From Mariprofundaceae bacterium (GTDB lineage Bacteria > Pseudomonadota > Zetaproteobacteria > Mariprofundales > Mariprofundaceae), in the NCBI GenBank assembly GCA_030950985.1, contig JAUZQM010000121.1:1-46346 (forward strand): a stretch of DNA of 46,346 nucleotides. The letters run 5' to 3'. The translations under genes were made by a program, and so were the position numbers. Under the pieces are notes generated by a model. The model did no database searches. It was not told the DNA's origin and saw nothing but the letters and a program-made list of their open reading frames with translations. Shown here one piece after another: positions 5,409 through 25,144 of this stretch (position 1 is the stretch's first letter; every line of letters starts with the position of its first letter).

Positions 5409-6116
5409 GTGAGTCAAAAAGTTCAACGTAATGCGCTTTGCCCTTGTGGTAGCGGTAAAAAATATAAAAAATGTTGCCTTCTCAAAGCAAAAGATGAAAG
5501 CAATCAGCGTTATGATCATCGTGAGGGTGTGCAAAAGTCATTGATATGGTTGAATCAAACCTACCGCCCTCAAATTGATCAATGGGTAGAGCAGTTCTGG
5601 TTTTCAGGGATGTCTGAGGTCGAACGGCAAGGTGTTGCAACAGCGGATGCTCAACTTCGAGCGATTCATGATGTGAATGTATTGGAGATTTTACTTGCTG
5701 AAGGGCGTTTTTCAGATGAAGAAAGCGAAGCAACACCCCTACAATTGGTATTAAATGAACAGTCACTTGAATTAAATGAATCGCAGCAATCATACCTTGC
5801 TCAATTAACGCAACGTCCTCTAAGGCTTTATGCTGTGGTATCACGCAACCTTGGAAAAAGCTTTACGGTGGAAGATGTGTTGGCAGATGAAACATTTGAT
5901 GTGTTTGATGCGGCAGGAAGTCGTATATTTGAGACGGGTGATTATGTGGGCTTACGCATGATGAAAGTGGGCGAAACATGGGAAACATCAGGGGCAATTT
6001 ATCATATCCCTACGGATTACCAAGAGGCATTAAAACATAACTTATCAGATGTTGAAGGGTCTCATAGCCAAGCGTTGGCAAGTTTTTGGTTGAAATTGGT
6101 GGCTGCTCATGTCTAA
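5409..6116 (+). CDS. SEC-C motif protein
   Basis: The N-terminus has the SEC-C zinc-binding motif CPCGSGKKYKKCC (residues ~11-23), as found at the end of SecA and in YchJ-like proteins. The remaining ~210 residues are not recognised; two halves rich in acidic residues could form a separate domain. I prefer the GTG at 5409, because GGGGAG lies 5 bp before it and the motif then begins close to the N-terminus. An upstream ATG at 5352 has no ribosome site. The gene overlaps the next by 8 bp. The zinc motif may mediate protein or ribosome contacts; the actual role is unknown. Confidence 0.8.
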   Translation: MSQKVQRNALCPCGSGKKYKKCCLLKAKDESNQRYDHREGVQKSLIWLNQTYRPQIDQWVEQFWFSGMSEVERQGVATADAQLRAIHDVNVLEILLAEGRFSDEESEATPLQLVLNEQSLELNESQQSYLAQLTQRPLRLYAVVSRNLGKSFTVEDVLADETFDVFDAAGSRIFETGDYVGLRMMKVGETWETSGAIYHIPTDYQEALKHNLSDVEGSHSQALASFWLKLVAAHV

Positions 6117-7791
6117 TCAATTATCCACCAATGCGAAGCGAAAGGTTGATGCTTTGGTCATGCAAATGCAGCAAGCTTTTCAACGACAAGACTGGGATAC
6201 TTGTGGTCAATTATGTATGCAAATTGAAGCTTGGGAGCCTAGCAACCCAGAAACAGCCAATGTACGAGGAATTGTGGCGATGCAATCGGGTGATGCGCAA
6301 GGCGCAGAACATTATTTTGTCAATGCAGTGAATGTCGCACCTGAAAATATCGGCTTTCAATTAAATTTGGGAAAACTTTATTTGCAACAGGGCTTGTCGG
6401 AAGATGCTTTTCCGCGTTTTCAGCGTGTATTGGAATTGAAACCTGATGATTTAACGGCAATTCTTGGTGCAGGGCAATGTTTATTGCAATTTGGTGAAGT
6501 GAAGCAAGCCTATGATTTGTTTTTACAAGCCACAGAAAAACATCCAAATGATAACATACTTGATATGGCATTGTTTCGTGCTGCATTCCAATTAAATGAT
6601 TTAAATGAAGCCAAAGCATGTCTTCACAAAGTCCTGGCAGCGGAACCTCACTATGCGGAAGCGTATTTGGGTTTAGGACAAATCGCTTTGCAGGAAGGTG
6701 ATTTTAAAGACGCTGAAAAACAAAGTTTGCGAGCTTTAGAATATAATCCACGTTTGAATATCGCCTATGCTTTTTTAGCCAACATTAAAATATTCAATCA
6801 TGATGATGATACTTTGATTGAGCAGATTAAAAAGTATCGACAAGCAATGCCAAAAGATTCTGCCATCTATATGGATTTAAGTTTTACTTTAGGTAAAGTG
6901 ATGGCTGACTTATCTGAATATCAGCGTGCCTTTGAATATATTAAAAAAGCCAATGATATAAAATATGAACACCTGAATTATAATCATGAAGCTGAAATAG
7001 CGCACTTACATGCTATTGTGGCATTAACAAGCGAAGAACAGTTTCAAACAACCAGTAAACTTGAAGATGACACGCCTATTTTTATCGTCGGTATGCCACG
7101 TTGTGGTTCGACAATGATAGAACAAATTCTAGCTTCTCATACCAGTGTTGAAAGTGTCGGTGAGTGCAACTTCTTTGAAGCGGCCGTGGCTGAGTTAAGT
7201 GATTCCAAAGCTCCGTTGACATTGGAAAAAATGCAGGATTTTTCTGCGCAGCAATGGCGTGAACTTGGTTCTGTTTACATGAAGAAAGTGCGTGATGTGC
7301 ATCCAGATGCGCGTTATGTGGTGGATAAAACACTAAGCAATATTCGTTTTGTGGGCGCGATTCATCAGGCTTTACCGCAAGCCAAAGTGATTCATGTGAA
7401 ACGTGATGCTTTAGATACATGCTGGTCTATTTATAAAAATCATTTGCTTGGACCTGTTTATTCCTATGGTTTTCACCTTGGTCAATTGGCTTATTATTAT
7501 CGTGCTTATCATCAATTGATGAAGCACTGGGTAGACATCTTGCCCGAAGATGTGATGTACGCATTGAATTATGAAGAAATGGTGGAGCATCAAGATATTG
7601 AAACCTTAAGTTTACTGAATGCGTGCCAGTTGGAAGCGGATGATGCATGTTTTCATTTTGAGAAATCGAACAATGTCACCATTACAGCAAGCCAAGCTCA
7701 AGTGCGTAAACCAATGTATTCGAGTGCCATAGGATCAGCAAAACCATACCAAGAAAATTTACATATTTTAGTGGATATTTTAGCCCGTTAA
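6109..7791 (+). CDS. TPR-sulfotransferase fusion protein
   Basis: This is a 560-residue protein. Residues ~5-300 consist of repeated helical pairs with TPR signatures (for example LNLGKLYLQQGLSEDAF, AYLGLGQIALQEGDF). Residues ~325-555 are a Sulfotransfer_3-type domain. The PAPS 5'-phosphosulfate loop is FIVGMPRCGSTMIEQILASH. The 3'-phosphate segment is VKRDALDTCWSIYKN. It should transfer sulfate from PAPS to a protein tyrosine, glycan or other acceptor brought in by the TPR part. Translation is coupled to the SEC-C gene (8-bp overlap). No PAPS synthesis genes are nearby. Bacterial proteins with this architecture are mostly uncharacterised. Confidence 0.9.
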   Translation: MSNQLSTNAKRKVDALVMQMQQAFQRQDWDTCGQLCMQIEAWEPSNPETANVRGIVAMQSGDAQGAEHYFVNAVNVAPENIGFQLNLGKLYLQQGLSEDAFPRFQRVLELKPDDLTAILGAGQCLLQFGEVKQAYDLFLQATEKHPNDNILDMALFRAAFQLNDLNEAKACLHKVLAAEPHYAEAYLGLGQIALQEGDFKDAEKQSLRALEYNPRLNIAYAFLANIKIFNHDDDTLIEQIKKYRQAMPKDSAIYMDLSFTLGKVMADLSEYQRAFEYIKKANDIKYEHLNYNHEAEIAHLHAIVALTSEEQFQTTSKLEDDTPIFIVGMPRCGSTMIEQILASHTSVESVGECNFFEAAVAELSDSKAPLTLEKMQDFSAQQWRELGSVYMKKVRDVHPDARYVVDKTLSNIRFVGAIHQALPQAKVIHVKRDALDTCWSIYKNHLLGPVYSYGFHLGQLAYYYRAYHQLMKHWVDILPEDVMYALNYEEMVEHQDIETLSLLNACQLEADDACFHFEKSNNVTITASQAQVRKPMYSSAIGSAKPYQENLHILVDILAR

Positions 7792-18659: not shown

Positions 18660-18803
18660 AATATACGAATTATCGCATGAGCATTATCAAATAAATGAGC
18701 AGCTAAGGTGCGTACGAGTTCTGGTTTACCCACACCCATCGAGCCTAAAAGATAAATGAACCAATAGGGCGTTCAGGATCAGTGATGCCAGCATAGCTTG
18801 CAC
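18660..18803 (-). pseudogene. ClpB-like ATPase remnant
   Basis: On the minus strand one frame gives AGITDPERPIGSFIF, and after a frameshift near 18745 another gives LGSMGVGKPELVRTLAAHLF, then DNAHAIIRI. Together these match the start of the second AAA+ module of ClpB/Hsp104 (typical GLSDPNRPIGSFIF LGPTGVGKTEL). The Walker A Thr is replaced by Pro, the frame is broken, and about 50 residues of a ~860-residue protein remain. It runs directly on from a GGDEF remnant, so the junction comes from a rearrangement. The extended reading frame down to 18554 after this point has no recognisable content. Confidence 0.75.
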
Positions 18804-19050
18804 CGCGTTATTTTGTCCTGTGCCCGCACCTGGTAGAATGATGCAAAATTCTTCGCCACCCAAGCGGGCAACCATATCGCTACTTCGGGTGCTTTCATTG
18901 AGAATGCTTGCCAATGTTTTTAAAATATCATCACCATAACGATCATTGATAAGTTTGAAGTGATCAATATCAATCATAATAAAACATGTGGGCAGGAAGT
19001 GTGGATAAAAATTCAGCTAGTTTACGGCGGTTAGCAAGTCCTATTTCTTT
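18804..19050 (-). pseudogene. GGDEF (diguanylate cyclase) domain remnant
   Basis: On the minus strand the first part reads GLANRRKLAEFLSTLPA, then a frameshift near 18980. The next frame then gives MIDIDHFKLINDRYGDD and VARLGGEEFCIILPGAG. These are the usual successive GGDEF-domain motifs, but they are split between frames and the C-terminal third is replaced by ClpB-like sequence. The gene is therefore inactive. Upstream, 19051-19212 holds nothing I can identify. Confidence 0.8.
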
Positions 19051-19212: not shown

Positions 19213-19476
19213 TTACGGGGCTTTAGCAGAGATACTTAAAGCATGAATGGTTGAAGAAAAGCGTTCTTTTAAGGTGTCATAAATGAGACGATGACAGGCA
19301 ATGCGTGACTTTCCTCGGAAAATTTCAGCTGTAATCTGTACTGTAAAATGCCCACCTTGGCTATCTTTAACACCTGCATGTCCAGCATGTTTCCATGAAT
19401 CATCTTCGATATGTAGACTGACAGGTGACAAGTTTTCCATCAGTAGTTTATGAATAGCTTGTGCGCGACGACTCAT
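19213..19476 (-). CDS. bolA: BolA-family protein
   Basis: This is an 87-residue protein with the BolA fold signatures HIEDDSWKHAGHAG and GGHFTVQITAEIFRGKSRIACHRLIYDTL (shown here as two separate stretches). The invariant His of the RLIY region and the central HAGH could coordinate an Fe-S cluster together with a monothiol glutaredoxin. The family acts in iron homeostasis and Fe-S trafficking, and in E. coli BolA affects morphology. Its start overlaps the yhbY stop by 4 bp. The grxC at 17490 is a dithiol type, so it is not the expected partner. Confidence 0.9.
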   Translation of the reverse strand: MSRRAQAIHKLLMENLSPVSLHIEDDSWKHAGHAGVKDSQGGHFTVQITAEIFRGKSRIACHRLIYDTLKERFSSTIHALSISAKAP

Positions 19477-19757
19477 GTTTTTTTACAATGTTTGCGTTTG
19501 CGGTAAAGAATAAATATTTTGCCAATATGATGAACCAGTTCAGCAGCTGTTTTTTCACATAGGGTTTGCGCGGCGGCGATGCGATCATCGCGTTCACCGA
19601 GCTGAATGTGTACTTTGATTAGTTCATGGGTATCCAGTGTGATATGGGTTTCAGCAATGACAGCTTCTGAAATGCCACGTTGACCAATGCGTATGACTGG
19701 TTTGAGGTGGTGTGCTTTGGCTTTAAGGTTTTTACGTTGCAAGTTGTTCATTGGCAT
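19473..19757 (-). CDS. yhbY: YhbY/CRM-domain ribosome assembly RNA-binding protein
   Basis: This 94-residue protein has a CRS1/YhbY domain: NLQRKNLKAKAHHLKPVIRIG, the GxxG-type loop in IGQRGISEAV, and LIKVHIQLGERDDR. Family members bind pre-50S ribosomal particles. Two ATGs (19757 and 19751) are possible; a longer frame extending to 19904 lacks domain content and overlaps the divergent gene, so it is rejected. A GGAG occurs 11 bp before 19757. It overlaps bolA by 4 bp. Confidence 0.88.
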   Translation of the reverse strand: MPMNNLQRKNLKAKAHHLKPVIRIGQRGISEAVIAETHITLDTHELIKVHIQLGERDDRIAAAQTLCEKTAAELVHHIGKIFILYRKRKHCKKT

Positions 19758-19888: not shown

Positions 19889-20803
19889 GTGAAAGATAAA
19901 GCAAAACGATTAAAAAATGACTCCAGCAGGGTGGTTATTTTGGGTGGAGGACGCGGTGGCTTAGCGATGTTGGAAATATTGCATGATGAATCCTTGGCGG
20001 AGGTGATTGGTGTCGTGGATGTGGATGAAATTGCAATCGGTATGCTGAAAGCTCGTGAGTTAGGTGTGCAAACTTTTTATAATGTTGAAACGGCATTGCT
20101 GGCATGTGCTCCTTGTGTCGCCTTTAATTTAACGAACAATGAAAAGGTTGAAAAAATAGCTGCTGGAATTTTAGGCTCAGGTGGTGTGATTGGTGGGTTA
20201 GAAGGGCGTTTGATGTGGCAAATGCTGACTTATATGAAAGAATCTAAAAATCATTTGGAATATCTTGCGATGCATGATTCCCTGACGGGCTTATGTAATC
20301 GACGTTATGTCTCTAAGCAATTAGAGAGAGAAGTGAGTCATGCTATGCGTTATGGCGTTGAGTGTTCTTTGGCGATTCTTGATTTGGATCACTTTAAGCA
20401 AGTTAATGATACACATGGGCATTTATCTGGTGATATTGTATTGAAATATGTTGCCGATGTACTACAAAAAAATATTCGTGCTTCAGATGTTCTTGGGCGA
20501 TGGGGTGGAGAAGAATTCTTAGTGGTGTTACCTCATACATCCGAGAAAAATGCAACGCATGCGATTCAAAAATGTTTGGATGCGTTGAAAAAAGATGCTG
20601 TTGAATTATTGGATGGTACGCATTTGAATGTTAGTTTTTCGGCAGGCGTTGCATCCGTTGCATCGTTAGCAATTTGTCCTGAAAAAGAACGTAATCAAGA
20701 TGTTAATGAATGTATGAATGTTTTTTTGGAGTTGGTGGATAGCCGCTTGTATCAAGCTAAAGGTCAAGGGCGTTCGTGTGTGGTAGGTGTGAATAGTTGG
20801 TGA
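19889..20803 (+). CDS. Diguanylate cyclase with N-terminal Rossmann-type domain
   Basis: This is a 304-residue soluble protein. Residues ~10-105 form a nucleotide-binding fold: VVILGGGRGGLAMLEIL is a glycine-rich dinucleotide loop, followed by VIGVVDVDE and a VAFNLTNN segment. Residues ~130-300 are a complete GGDEF domain (LTGLCNRR, DLDHFKQVND, active site GGEEF). An intact inhibitory I-site RASD lies five residues before the active site. It should make c-di-GMP from GTP, perhaps in response to NAD(P)(H) or another nucleotide. The GTG start has TAGGAG 8 bp upstream. It is 24 bp from the adenylate cyclase gene. This domain pairing is unusual among well-studied GGDEF proteins. Confidence 0.9.
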   Translation: MKDKAKRLKNDSSRVVILGGGRGGLAMLEILHDESLAEVIGVVDVDEIAIGMLKARELGVQTFYNVETALLACAPCVAFNLTNNEKVEKIAAGILGSGGVIGGLEGRLMWQMLTYMKESKNHLEYLAMHDSLTGLCNRRYVSKQLEREVSHAMRYGVECSLAILDLDHFKQVNDTHGHLSGDIVLKYVADVLQKNIRASDVLGRWGGEEFLVVLPHTSEKNATHAIQKCLDALKKDAVELLDGTHLNVSFSAGVASVASLAICPEKERNQDVNECMNVFLELVDSRLYQAKGQGRSCVVGVNSW

Positions 20804-20827
20804 ATATAGCTATGGGGAAAGTGGTGT

Positions 20828-22255
20828 ATGAGCAAAGTTGAAGGTAAAACATCAAGGCGATTTCAGATTCGTTGGCGCTGGACATTAATGGTGGAATTTG
20901 CAGTTGTCATGACAGTTGCTATTTTGATGATGATCATTTTGAACGTTGAACGCGACGCTTGGTTGCACAATCAAGAAACACAAGCAAAAGTATCAGTAAA
21001 TCGTTTGTCAGAAGCATTGAAGCTACCATTGTTGAGTGGAAGTGAAGCGGAAGTTGGGGCAATTATTCATAGTTTTATGGAAACAGAAAAGGCTGTACTT
21101 GCGGTTTCAGTTCATTTTTCTCACGGTACACGAGGCAAGGTTTTTGGTGATGTAGGTGGAGATAAAATACTGTTAAATCATCAAACCTATGCCTTCGATG
21201 TGCTACGTCTTGATAGTGACAATCTATGGTTTGCGAAACGTATTCAATATGCCAATACATCAATAGGTGATGTTGCCGTACATTATTCTCAAAGTGCTTG
21301 GGCGTTGTTGTCGCAACGAATTTTGCATCAAATGTTGTTGGCAGCGATTGGAGTGGTTTTGTTATCGAGTTTGCTAATTTATTGGGTTGCAGGGAAAATT
21401 AGCAAGCCAATGGAGCTATTGGCAGCCGCGGCTTCTCGTGTGGCTGCTGGAGACTATCAAGTGCAACTCACCGTGAAAGGCAATGACGAAGTGAGTGATG
21501 CTATGAGTCAGTTTAATCAGATGGTGATGGAGCTGAAACATAAGGAAAAAATGCGAGATACCTTTGGTAAGTATTTAAATCCCAAATTGGTATCGGAAGT
21601 GTTTAAACATGGCTCAGCTAAAATGGATAATCACTGTCAAGTTGTAACTGTTCTTTTTGCAGATATGGTTGGCTTCACCTCCTTTTCGGAAAGTGCAAGG
21701 CCTGAATATGTGGTGGATGTGTTGAATAAACATTTTGAAGTATTTCATCGTATTATTGATTATTTTGGTGGGCATGTAGATAAGTATATTGGTGATGCTG
21801 TGATGGCGGTATTTAATCACCCTAAAGAAAATGAACATCATATTGAGTATGCTGTGATGGCCGCGTTAGCGATGGTAAAGGCTTGTGAAAACTTGGGTAT
21901 TTTGCGGCAAAATGGTGAAAAAATATCATTTCGTATAGGGCTTAATTGTGGCGATGCTATCGTAGGGAGTATTGGGGCGAATGAGCGTTTGGAATATACG
22001 GTAATTGGCAATACAGTGAATGTTGCATCTCGTATGTGTGGTTTGGGTGAGGGTGGTGGAGTTGTTTTATCACATGCTACATTTGAAATGTTAGATGATC
22101 GTTTTGCTTTTGAAACATTGGGAATAAAAAAAGTGAAAGGTGTTACAGATTTATTGGAATGTGGTTGTGTAGTGGTGCAGGATCAAATATTACAAGAGAA
22201 AATTAATACAGCGGTTGGCTTAGCATTTGATTTAACTGTTGAATTACACGCTTAA
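20828..22255 (+). CDS. Membrane-bound class III adenylate cyclase with HAMP domain
   Basis: The 475-residue protein has a membrane helix (~18-40), a periplasmic sensor region of ~120 residues, a second helix (~163-185) and a HAMP domain (~186-238). The class III cyclase domain spans ~265-450. Metal-binding Asp residues are in LFADMVGFTSFS and YIGDAVMAVFN. The Lys in VDKYIGDAV is the adenine-selecting type. NTVNVASRM provides the Asn and Arg that stabilise the transition state. It should make cAMP in response to a periplasmic or membrane signal. It is the middle gene of a three-gene run with a diguanylate cyclase and a lipoprotein. Confidence 0.92.
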   Translation: MSKVEGKTSRRFQIRWRWTLMVEFAVVMTVAILMMIILNVERDAWLHNQETQAKVSVNRLSEALKLPLLSGSEAEVGAIIHSFMETEKAVLAVSVHFSHGTRGKVFGDVGGDKILLNHQTYAFDVLRLDSDNLWFAKRIQYANTSIGDVAVHYSQSAWALLSQRILHQMLLAAIGVVLLSSLLIYWVAGKISKPMELLAAAASRVAAGDYQVQLTVKGNDEVSDAMSQFNQMVMELKHKEKMRDTFGKYLNPKLVSEVFKHGSAKMDNHCQVVTVLFADMVGFTSFSESARPEYVVDVLNKHFEVFHRIIDYFGGHVDKYIGDAVMAVFNHPKENEHHIEYAVMAALAMVKACENLGILRQNGEKISFRIGLNCGDAIVGSIGANERLEYTVIGNTVNVASRMCGLGEGGGVVLSHATFEMLDDRFAFETLGIKKVKGVTDLLECGCVVVQDQILQEKINTAVGLAFDLTVELHA

Positions 22256-22269
22256 ATTGGAGAAGTGAC

Positions 22270-23424
22270 TTGAATCGTTTTTTTTATATTCTGGCAATAC
22301 TGGGATTTATTTTTATATCAGGTTGTGTGCCATCTCATGGTGGTTTGTCGAAGGATAATGAGAAAAAACACGTCTTTGTCGATGCTTCTCAAAGGTTTTA
22401 TCTTGTTAAAAAGAAATTTTCTGTTGGCAAAGTGATGGAAGCTTATCAAGTTGCTCAAGCGATTACTTCCAATGATAAAGATTATGCAGCGGCTCGTTTG
22501 TTTTTGAAGAAAACGCTGAACCCTGCGCGTATTCACTTACTTCGGTATTATAAGAGCATTGCTAAGAAAGCAGAGCGTGAAAGAAATTGGAATAAGGCTT
22601 GGGTTAATTATAAACAAACTGCAGAATTTTCAGCTAAACCTGAGGTTTTTGATTCAAATATAGCATCGGTCTACTTGCATCGTGAGCAGCTGCGCTTGAA
22701 CACCTTGTTAAAACAACGACGTTTAGAAGATCATGCCTTGTTGCAAGGTTTAAAAGGCTATCAAGTTCCGCAAGGTGTGGCGCAATATGATGTTATTTTT
22801 TTAGCTTTTTCAAAACAACACCATGCTGATTTATATCAGAGAGCCGAACAAGCTTATTTGGCAGCCAATGCCTATGTTAGCAAAAAAAAGTGGGTTCCGG
22901 CCTATGTTTTGATTGAATCACATTTGCGATTGATGCCGGATTCGTTAATTGGAAAAGAATTACTTTATACGATTCAGAAAGCATGGTTGAAAGGTCTGGC
23001 GATTCCTAAAGGGTTGAGTGAAAAAAGAGTCGTAAAGAAGAAAATTAGTGTACCGCTTTCTCCAAAAGAGGTGAAAAAGCCAGTTGTTTTGTTGAAAAGT
23101 GTTGTTTTGTCGAAAAGTGATATTCAAGCTTTGGTAAAGGATCAGAGGTGGATAGAAGCACAGGATGCAGCCGTGATTTATCAGGAACATCAAGGAGAAG
23201 GCGCCGATACTTTGCTTCAAGGTATCAATGTTCAAATTAAGAGGCTAGCTGGGCAAGCATTCCAACGGGGTAGCCGGGCTTTTCAACAAGAATATATTGA
23301 TCAAGCTGTGCAGTTTTGGGATGAGGCAGTGCAATTTGAACCCAGTAATGAAACTTATTTAGATGCGTTGAATCGAGCCTTATCGCTGCAAGAACGGTTG
23401 CACTTATTACGCCATAAAAAGTAG
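22270..23424 (+). CDS. Lipoprotein with TPR-like helical repeats, unknown function
   Basis: The 384-residue protein has a lipoprotein signal peptide with lipobox FISGC (Cys ~19). The rest is basic and largely helical, with TPR-like pairs such as WNKAWVNYKQTAEFSAKPEVF and a better C-terminal match, AVQFWDEAVQFEPSNETYLDALNRAL. The start is a TTG with GGAGAAG about 5 bp upstream. It follows the adenylate cyclase by 14 bp and precedes ispG by 6 bp. It may be a periplasmic partner of the cyclase sensor domain or an envelope scaffold; the family is not recognised. Confidence 0.82.
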   Translation: MNRFFYILAILGFIFISGCVPSHGGLSKDNEKKHVFVDASQRFYLVKKKFSVGKVMEAYQVAQAITSNDKDYAAARLFLKKTLNPARIHLLRYYKSIAKKAERERNWNKAWVNYKQTAEFSAKPEVFDSNIASVYLHREQLRLNTLLKQRRLEDHALLQGLKGYQVPQGVAQYDVIFLAFSKQHHADLYQRAEQAYLAANAYVSKKKWVPAYVLIESHLRLMPDSLIGKELLYTIQKAWLKGLAIPKGLSEKRVVKKKISVPLSPKEVKKPVVLLKSVVLSKSDIQALVKDQRWIEAQDAAVIYQEHQGEGADTLLQGINVQIKRLAGQAFQRGSRAFQQEYIDQAVQFWDEAVQFEPSNETYLDALNRALSLQERLHLLRHKK

Positions 23425-23430
23425 GGGATT

Positions 23431-24525
23431 ATGCGAGATATTATTGTTATGCCACGTCGTCAAACACGAAAAATTAGGGTTGGGAATGTTGCTGTAGGTG
23501 GAAATGCACCAATTGCTGTACAATCTATGACCAATACTTTAACTTCCGATATAGATGGAACCGTTGCACAAGTACATTCGCTAGCAGAAGCAGGTGCGGA
23601 TATCGTGAGGATTTCGGTCCCAGATGTTGAATCAGCTGCTGCGATGCCTGAAATTTTGAGGCAAACAAATGTGCCTATTATCGCTGATATACATTTTAGT
23701 TATAAAATGGCCTTATTGGCGCTTGATGCGGGCGTGCATGGCTTGCGTTTAAATCCCGGTAATATTGGTAGTCGAGATCGAGTTGAACGTGTGGTTAAAA
23801 TGGCACAAGAGCGTGGTGTGTCGATTCGTATTGGTGTAAACGCAGGTTCACTTGAAAAGGAATTTAATGAGCAATATGGTGAGCCTTGTGCTGATGCGAT
23901 GGTAGCTTCAGCGCTGCGACATATTCGAATTCTTGAAGATATGAATTTTCATGATATTAAAGTATCACTGAAAGCGAGTAATATTCCGATGACGGTGACT
24001 GCTTATCGTAAACTGGCTGGAAAAGTTGATTATCCTTTTCATTTGGGCATTACTGAATCAGGAAGTTTGTTTGGTGGTACAGTGAAGTCATCGGTGGGTT
24101 TAGGTTTAATTTTGTCAGATGGCATTGGTGATACCATACGGGTGTCTTTGGCTGCAGATCCCAAAGAAGAAATTAAAGTTGGTTTTGAAATTCTCAAAAG
24201 TCTTGGTCTTCGCCATCGTGGTGTGAATTTAATTGCTTGCCCTTCATGTGCGAGACAAAAATTTAATGTTATTGAGATGGTGCAAGAACTTGAAGGACGG
24301 CTAGCGCATATTCAAGAACCTGTTGATGTGGCTGTGATTGGTTGTGTTGTGAATGGACCAGGCGAAGCCAAGGAAGTGCAAGTGGGGATTACAGGCGGTT
24401 ATCCCACCCATACTTTTTATCATGATGGTGAAAAATTTGGTCGCGTAAAATCATCGAATATGATTGATGCATTGGTGGAAGAAGTGGAAAAGCGTGCTAC
24501 TGTGATGCGTGAAAATAAAAAATAG
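23431..24525 (+). CDS. ispG: 4-hydroxy-3-methylbut-2-enyl diphosphate synthase
   Basis: This [4Fe-4S] enzyme of the MEP isoprenoid pathway converts methylerythritol cyclodiphosphate to HMBPP. The N-terminal TIM barrel begins [16 protein letters not shown] and includes [10 protein letters not shown] and [10 protein letters not shown]. The C-terminal cluster ligands are the two Cys in CPSCARQ and the one in [10 protein letters not shown]. The 364-residue length is that of the bacterial short form. Together with dxr and uppS in this window it covers isoprenoid carrier synthesis. Confidence 0.97.
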
Positions 24526-24577
24526 AAGTTTTATTGGATGATGAGTGAATAGTTTGAACTATAAGGAGAAAAGAACG

Positions 24578-25144
24578 ATGAAAAAATATATATTAGGTAT
24601 GTCTAGTTTGGCAGTGTTGTTTACATTTTCACTGAACGTATGGGCTGAAGATTCAGAACATGAGTCAGAAAAAGCGAAGAATTATACACAAGCAACACCT
24701 GTTCATTCGTCCATGCAGGGCAAAAAAAATTATCACAAAGAGTGTTCGTCGTGTCATATGGCTTATCCAGCCAATTTTCTTCCCGCTCGATCGTGGAAAG
24801 CATTGCTCAACGGTTTGGATAAACATTTTGGTGAAAATGCTGAGCTAGATGCAGAAGATAAGCGCAGTATTCTCACCTATTTGGATGCGAATGCATCTGA
24901 TCATAGCCACAGCCGTTTTGCAGCTTGGATCAATCGTTCGATTTCTCCGAATAAAACACCGTTGCGTATTACTAAAACACGTTATTTTGACCGTTTGCAT
25001 GATGAAGTGCCGACCCGTTTTGTATCAGGAAATCCTAAAGTTCGTTCATTTTCAAATTGTATCGCATGTCATCGTGGCGCAGATCAAGGTGATTTTGATG
25101 AAGATCGTGTGATGATTCCTGGAATGAAGCGTTGGCATGATTGA
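24578..25144 (+). CDS. Dihaem cytochrome c (DHC family)
   Basis: The 188-residue protein has a signal peptide (ending NVWAE, ~24) and two haem c motifs, CSSCH (~58) and CIACH (~160). The conserved stretch MAYPANFLPARSW just after the first motif, and LRITKTRYF in the middle, fit the DHC family of dihaem cytochromes. These are found in the periplasm, often with a cytochrome b partner; no partner is seen here. Start chosen at 24578, with AAGGAG 8 bp upstream; a GTG at 24545 is in frame but unneeded. It lies between ispG and hisS, an unusual place. Confidence 0.9.
   Translation: MKKYILGMSSLAVLFTFSLNVWAEDSEHESEKAKNYTQATPVHSSMQGKKNYHKECSSCHMAYPANFLPARSWKALLNGLDKHFGENAELDAEDKRSILTYLDANASDHSHSRFAAWINRSISPNKTPLRITKTRYFDRLHDEVPTRFVSGNPKVRSFSNCIACHRGADQGDFDEDRVMIPGMKRWHD

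Follow-up and report, generated by a model that had tools for sequence, protein, structure and literature searches.

A Rossmann-type domain as candidate NAD(H) input of a diguanylate cyclase encoded beside a class III adenylyl cyclase in Mariprofundaceae

The window analyzed here, contig C26 with 46,346 nucleotides, comes from a metagenome-assembled genome (MAG) of 1.75 Mb (88.8% complete) that belongs to a marine iron oxidiser of the Mariprofundaceae (Zetaproteobacteria). On its plus strand it carries a run of genes encoding, in this order, a diguanylate cyclase (DGC) in which a Rossmann domain precedes the GGDEF domain, a class III adenylyl cyclase and a lipoprotein with tetratricopeptide repeats (TPRs). 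Among the new findings the strongest concerns the Rossmann domain, which belongs to an uncatalogued family common to several kinds of signalling protein; this sensor family is the main interest of the locus. Judging from its domains, the window protein probably responds to a cofactor, for instance NAD(H), by making cyclic di-GMP (c-di-GMP), and the membrane cyclase with its lipoprotein partner probably responds to the cell envelope by making cyclic AMP (cAMP). We find no evidence that the two inputs, which lie side by side, are coupled.

A dinucleotide-type Rossmann domain in front of GGDEF

The DGC and its parts are located as follows.
19889..20803, plus strand: Rossmann-GGDEF DGC, open reading frame (ORF) with GTG start, 304 amino acids (aa)
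19928..20200, plus strand: N-terminal Rossmann domain (alignment, AlphaFold model, Foldseek, profile search)
19943-19960, plus strand: GxGxxG (aa 19-24)
20018-20020, plus strand: acid ending strand 2 (D44)
20201..20266, plus strand: long last Rossmann helix entering GGDEF (AlphaFold model, fixed spacing)
20267..20776, plus strand: GGDEF domain (aa 127-296; Pfam E 3e-40)
20477-20488, plus strand: I-site RASD (aa 197), of the form RxxD, five residues before GGEEF
20504-20518, plus strand: GGEEF active site (aa 206)

Sequence and model both support, in silico, an assignment of the N-terminal part to the Rossmann domains of the dinucleotide type. When the first 120 residues of the DGC were aligned with 23 relatives, GxGxxG was found in 22 of 23 sequences, one relative having GASNGG, and the acid ending strand 2 was invariant; it is also kept in all 18 distant members for which the start of the domain was displayed. 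The AlphaFold model (pLDDT 88.5) shows the alternating beta-alpha Rossmann fold, with a long last helix heading towards GGDEF. Acylating acetaldehyde dehydrogenase ranks first in a profile search of solved structures (E 5e-6), and Foldseek returns this enzyme together with NAD-dependent enzymes of the Gfo/Idh/MocA group (best E 2e-4, TM-score ~0.6; 2.3 Å over 97 columns for 1nvm_D). No Pfam model scores above its cut-off on the window copy of the domain; weak matches to GFO_IDH_MocA occur in 21 and to DapB_N in 20 of 24 sequences, and one distant member of the family passes the GFO_IDH_MocA cut-off. The domain thus has the fold and the glycine fingerprint of acetaldehyde dehydrogenase (1nvm, 8ih7) and of Gfo/Idh/MocA enzymes but differs from them in being fused to signalling domains: the catalytic C-terminal half of the dehydrogenase is absent and GGDEF stands in its stead.

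The junction has a fixed length. The distance from IGG to the DxLT at the start of GGDEF is 29 residues in 23 sequences, and five distant homologues share it; on reading the sequences, the few other values were judged to come from the search pattern matching a neighbouring motif. Both the I-site and GG[DE]EF are present in all 23 aligned DGC sequences, and the protein is conserved in 54 genomes of the family. Its GGDEF domain is related to those of WspR, PleD and SiaD-type diguanylate cyclases; unlike these, the window DGC has no receiver domain, and the Rossmann domain occupies that place. The description in a first-pass annotation, a Rossmann-GGDEF protein with intact I-site and active site, therefore holds.

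A putative Rossmann sensor family beyond the window

When GTDB species genomes were scanned, the Rossmann domain turned up in the Zetaproteobacteria and in Gallionellaceae/Nitrosomonadales, likewise a group of iron oxidisers. At a threshold of E 1e-8 it is present in 63 of the 78 genomes of the class and, counting those of the class, in 98 of the 398 genomes sampled across the phylum. Its copies in Gallionellaceae/Nitrosomonadales (L169, L172, L173, L177) head a different GGDEF subfamily, indicating that the domain has been recombined, and the 29-residue spacing holds in these proteins too. The other GGDEF subfamily suggests that the sensor domain has been exchanged, either among iron oxidisers or between them and other organisms. 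A plasmid search returned mainly matches to the GGDEF domain.

Outputs vary well beyond a directly attached GGDEF. Pfam-confirmed fusions join the Rossmann domain to PAS-GGDEF, to GAF-HisKA-HATPase-REC-REC-GGDEF and to GGDEF through an unassigned middle part. In other classes of the phylum it is combined with a terminal MCP signalling domain in soluble proteins of ~215-235 aa (L215, confirmed by Pfam; L216, L217 and L233, assigned by eye), and a short Rossmann protein with no recognised output domain also exists. (Genome G045 consists of one contig of 4.72 Mb.) Since the cofactor fingerprint stays while the outputs change, the domain is best read, on its sequence, as an input module.

By the usual Rossmann rules, an acid at the end of strand 2 favours NAD(H) over NADP(H), and the ligand of the DGC would most likely be NAD+/NADH. 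A domain that has lost or changed its ligand, acting mainly as a dimerisation scaffold or binding coenzyme A (CoA), ADP or a protein partner, appears unlikely to us. The missing catalytic half would suit such a role, as would the GASNGG of one relative and the standing of acetaldehyde dehydrogenase as nearest solved sequence relative; yet GxGxxG and the strand-2 acid are kept across entirely different outputs, a constancy not required of a mere scaffold.

The first-pass annotation had called a dinucleotide-type sensor uncommon for a DGC. The in silico assignment to an NAD-type Rossmann fold and the literature agree with it: within the text of a 2022 census of c-di-GMP inputs that a keyword search covers, no Rossmann or NAD sensor appears (PMC8846402), and in the open-access literature searched by keyword we found no description of a Rossmann or NAD-binding diguanylate cyclase. 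The redox inputs given in Table 3 of that census are heme, hemerythrin (di-iron), flavin-PAS and disulfide (PMC8846402). With the redox-input cyclases described in that part of the census, the window protein shares GGDEF with an I-site, an N-terminal sensor and a proposed input of the redox type; it differs from them in that its sensor is a Rossmann dinucleotide domain. We tentatively propose, at somewhat less than an even chance, that the domain is an uncatalogued NAD(H) input module, widespread in Zetaproteobacteria and found also in the iron-oxidising Gallionellaceae, through which NADH/NAD+ would directly drive c-di-GMP synthesis (either directly or via PAS/GAF), histidine kinases and chemoreceptor-type proteins.

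A membrane adenylyl cyclase and its lipoprotein neighbour

The two genes following the DGC have these features.
20828..22255, plus strand: class III adenylyl cyclase with two transmembrane (TM) stretches, ORF with ATG start, 475 aa
20939..21331, plus strand: region between TM1 (aa 20-38) and TM2 (aa 169-187) that holds the periplasmic sensor domain
21383..21538, plus strand: HAMP domain (Pfam E 2e-12)
21635..22141, plus strand: class III catalytic domain (Guanylate_cyc; Pfam E 3e-35)
22270..23424, plus strand: TPR lipoprotein, ORF with TTG start, 384 aa
22324-22326, plus strand: acylated Cys19 of the lipobox ISGC, with a residue other than Asp at +2

The cyclase has two hydrophobic stretches (TM1 and TM2), and in its catalytic domain the metal-binding pair Asp279/Asp323, the purine pair Lys319/Thr391, Asn398 and Arg402 are invariant in 22 aligned cyclases. 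In silico, these residues support ATP-type selectivity, in line with the HAMP-coupled cyclase with an adenine-type Lys that had been predicted. Pseudomonas CyaB (3r5g) and other bacterial class III cyclases have the same catalytic domain and residues, including the Lys/Thr purine pair; the window cyclase differs from CyaB-type enzymes in its periplasmic domain, which is of no known family and was found only in Zetaproteobacteria. Searches with this region gave no credible match among Pfam, NCBIfam or PDB profiles, CHASE8 included, and a YfiN-like reading of it was dropped because CHASE8 was not matched. It occurs in 71 of the 398 genomes searched, all of them of the window's family or order and within the 78-genome class, and is thus confined to Zetaproteobacteria among the genomes searched. 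One cyclase homologue (L125:1720-3089, genome G014) is split over two stretches, possibly by a frameshift.

The lipoprotein is predicted to be located in the outer membrane: its lipobox residue at +2 is never Asp in the relatives seen, the sorting rule being that of E. coli. TPR-like repeats had been noted by the first-pass annotation; they lie below threshold in the window sequence alone and are clear across the family, where TPR_2 is listed, with E values no higher than 0.5 (best 2e-8), for 24 of the 27 members. On its own, the lipoprotein of the window genome falls below every curated Pfam cut-off. A family profile run against solved structures matches designed TPR proteins (E 3e-40). A more specific identity by fold was abandoned, as all such matches were to generic TPRs with low TM-scores.

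Among known pairs, YfiBNR combines a CHASE8 sensor with an OmpA-type lipoprotein; the window pair matches neither component, no OmpA-type match being seen among the families listed for the lipoprotein. A closer parallel in layout is offered by QseE-QseG, in which the outer-membrane lipoprotein QseG directly activates the inner-membrane sensor histidine kinase QseE (PMC12691602). There as here, an inner-membrane sensor with a periplasmic domain is encoded next to a lipoprotein, predicted in the window to be outer-membrane; the output in the window is a cyclase, however, the lipoprotein is of the TPR type, and the pair is known from gene neighbourhood. The resemblance is one of layout, not homology.

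Gene order separates the DGC from a cyclase-lipoprotein-ispG core

The three genes are co-directional and, as first reported, separated by 24 and 14 bp, and the run continues beyond 23424 with ispG (6 bp further on), a dihaem cytochrome c gene (19 bp) and hisS (44 bp). From this arrangement the first-pass annotation had derived a module coupling c-di-GMP and cAMP. Such a unit, integrating redox and envelope signals through joint control of both messengers, now seems to us improbable. The common strand and short gaps speak for it, as does gene order in relatives: of the 53 genomes with both DGC and cyclase genes, 35 have them adjacent on the same strand. These 35 represent 6 of 9 genera (g1, g3, g9, g11, g12, g13) and include 11 of 11 genomes of the window's genus, and the lipoprotein gene is next where the contig allows. 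The first-pass annotation's condition for refutation, that no relative keeps the three genes together, accordingly fails in the window's genus and five others. Adjacency across six genera can be inherited, however, and it is nil in three genera (0/13 in g8, 0/4 in g4, and g5). In g8 the DGC gene adjoins yhbY-bolA and the cyclase-lipoprotein-ispG genes are located elsewhere, while the DGC is missing from genus g10, families f2 and f3 and others, with the remaining genes in place. In genomes G019, G021 and G024 the cyclase gene lies beside yhbY and there is no DGC. A relative of the dihaem cytochrome c sits between DGC and cyclase in G013 and G025.

The other two links are older and more constant. 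Cyclase-lipoprotein adjacency spans families f1 and f2, and the lipoprotein gene adjoins ispG in nearly all genomes. Gene order in relatives thus points to a constant core of cyclase, lipoprotein and ispG with the DGC as an often-present neighbour that tracks yhbY-bolA, and because its link to the cyclase is the less constant one, the two inputs appear juxtaposed. A closed three-gene module was rejected, as the DGC moves independently and ispG follows after 6 bp. The parts of the locus are hence as originally described; the coupling is not upheld, since relatives do not keep the genes together as a set.

The constancy of the ispG link raises a further possibility, namely that the lipoprotein is a PilF-like TPR factor of envelope assembly in the classical slot before ispG-hisS, its proximity to the cyclase being incidental. 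In Acinetobacter baylyi, the outer-membrane lipoprotein gene pilF is in an operon with essential genes, and ispG and hisS are named among the essential genes of operons of this kind (PMC5542475). We keep this explanation, doubtful but a little stronger than that of a changed Rossmann ligand, because the slot recalls the position of pilF near essential genes in that organism (PMC5542475) and because lipoprotein-ispG adjacency is near-universal and extends to f3, whose cyclase gene lies at another place. PilF itself was not specifically matched among solved structures, which gave generic TPRs, so that its identity is retained by gene position; moreover, cyclase-lipoprotein adjacency persists in genome G011, although the pair has no ispG match next to it there.

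A proposed pair of independent sensory cyclases

On sequence and model, we give about an even chance to two independent sensory cyclases in one gene run, an NAD-type DGC and an adenylyl cyclase set by a lipoprotein. In the former, that half of a dehydrogenase which binds NAD(H) would have been reused as sensor. A cytosolic dinucleotide, most likely NAD+/NADH, would shift the long helix that runs at fixed register into GGDEF, either by binding or by a change in its state or level; the shift would alter the way in which the two halves of the GGDEF pair come together and thereby c-di-GMP output, with feedback at the I-site. In the latter, the putatively outer-membrane TPR lipoprotein would set the periplasmic domain of the cyclase by contact, and the signal would pass through HAMP to the cyclase dimer, yielding cAMP for the CRP-like receptors of the genome. 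The analysis itself shows the genes and domains, the intact residues, their conservation and the modular spread of the Rossmann domain; from these we infer co-transcription, the ligand, the direction of control, the outer-membrane location and the lipoprotein-cyclase contact.

Several points weigh against this proposal. The AlphaFold and Foldseek matches, at best E 2e-4 and TM ~0.6, inform on fold and not on ligand, and the profile match to acetaldehyde dehydrogenase allows CoA as well. The DGC has the highest dN/dS of the three genes (0.34) and is absent or moved in several genera, so it may be accessory. Finally, preservation of the lipoprotein-ispG pair in f3, with the cyclase elsewhere, suggests that the main function of the lipoprotein may be a different one. 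All three genes are under purifying selection, dN/dS relative to the nearest relative being ~0.34 for the DGC, ~0.14 for the cyclase and 0.19-0.31 for the lipoprotein.

Receptors for both messengers are likely present, since the genome has one PilZ match and 14 cNMP-binding domain matches. It also has four GGDEF matches, one of them in a broken gene, and two class III cyclases. No EAL match was obtained in the genome, perhaps owing to MAG incompleteness, and HD-GYP was not searched. The second class III cyclase (G000:C78:742-1919) adjoins a divergent cNMP-binding protein of ~233 aa.

Surroundings of the locus

Pfam recognised the GGDEF, HAMP and Guanylate_cyc domains in the window, and the close relatives in public records are Mariprofundaceae, Ghiorsea and Mariprofundus. 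The flanking genes are the following.
19473..19757, minus strand: yhbY, divergent neighbour that accompanies the DGC in relatives
23431..24525, plus strand: ispG, 6 bp 3' of the lipoprotein gene and its most constant neighbour
24545-25144: dihaem cytochrome c (DHC family), between ispG and hisS

A broken fragment of a second GGDEF gene lies at 18780-19041 on the minus strand; in relatives such as G008 and G005 this gene is intact (~411 aa) behind bolA. It is followed by another fragment that, by eye, resembles a piece of a Clp ATPase. The broken GGDEF fragment is either a deletion scar or an artefact of MAG assembly. Elsewhere in the window, 6109-7791 encodes a TPR-sulfotransferase fusion protein.

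Implications for iron oxidisers

Neutrophilic Fe(II) oxidisers have to make NADH by uphill electron flow, and the NADH level therefore reports the supply of Fe(II) and O2. If NAD(H) is read by the Rossmann domain itself, one protein would link central metabolism to decisions on biofilm and stalk formation, and its occurrence on chemoreceptor-type and kinase proteins would make NAD(H) sensing by this module more general. At ~300 aa, the Rossmann-GGDEF proteins are soluble and easy to assay, making the question of their ligand directly testable.

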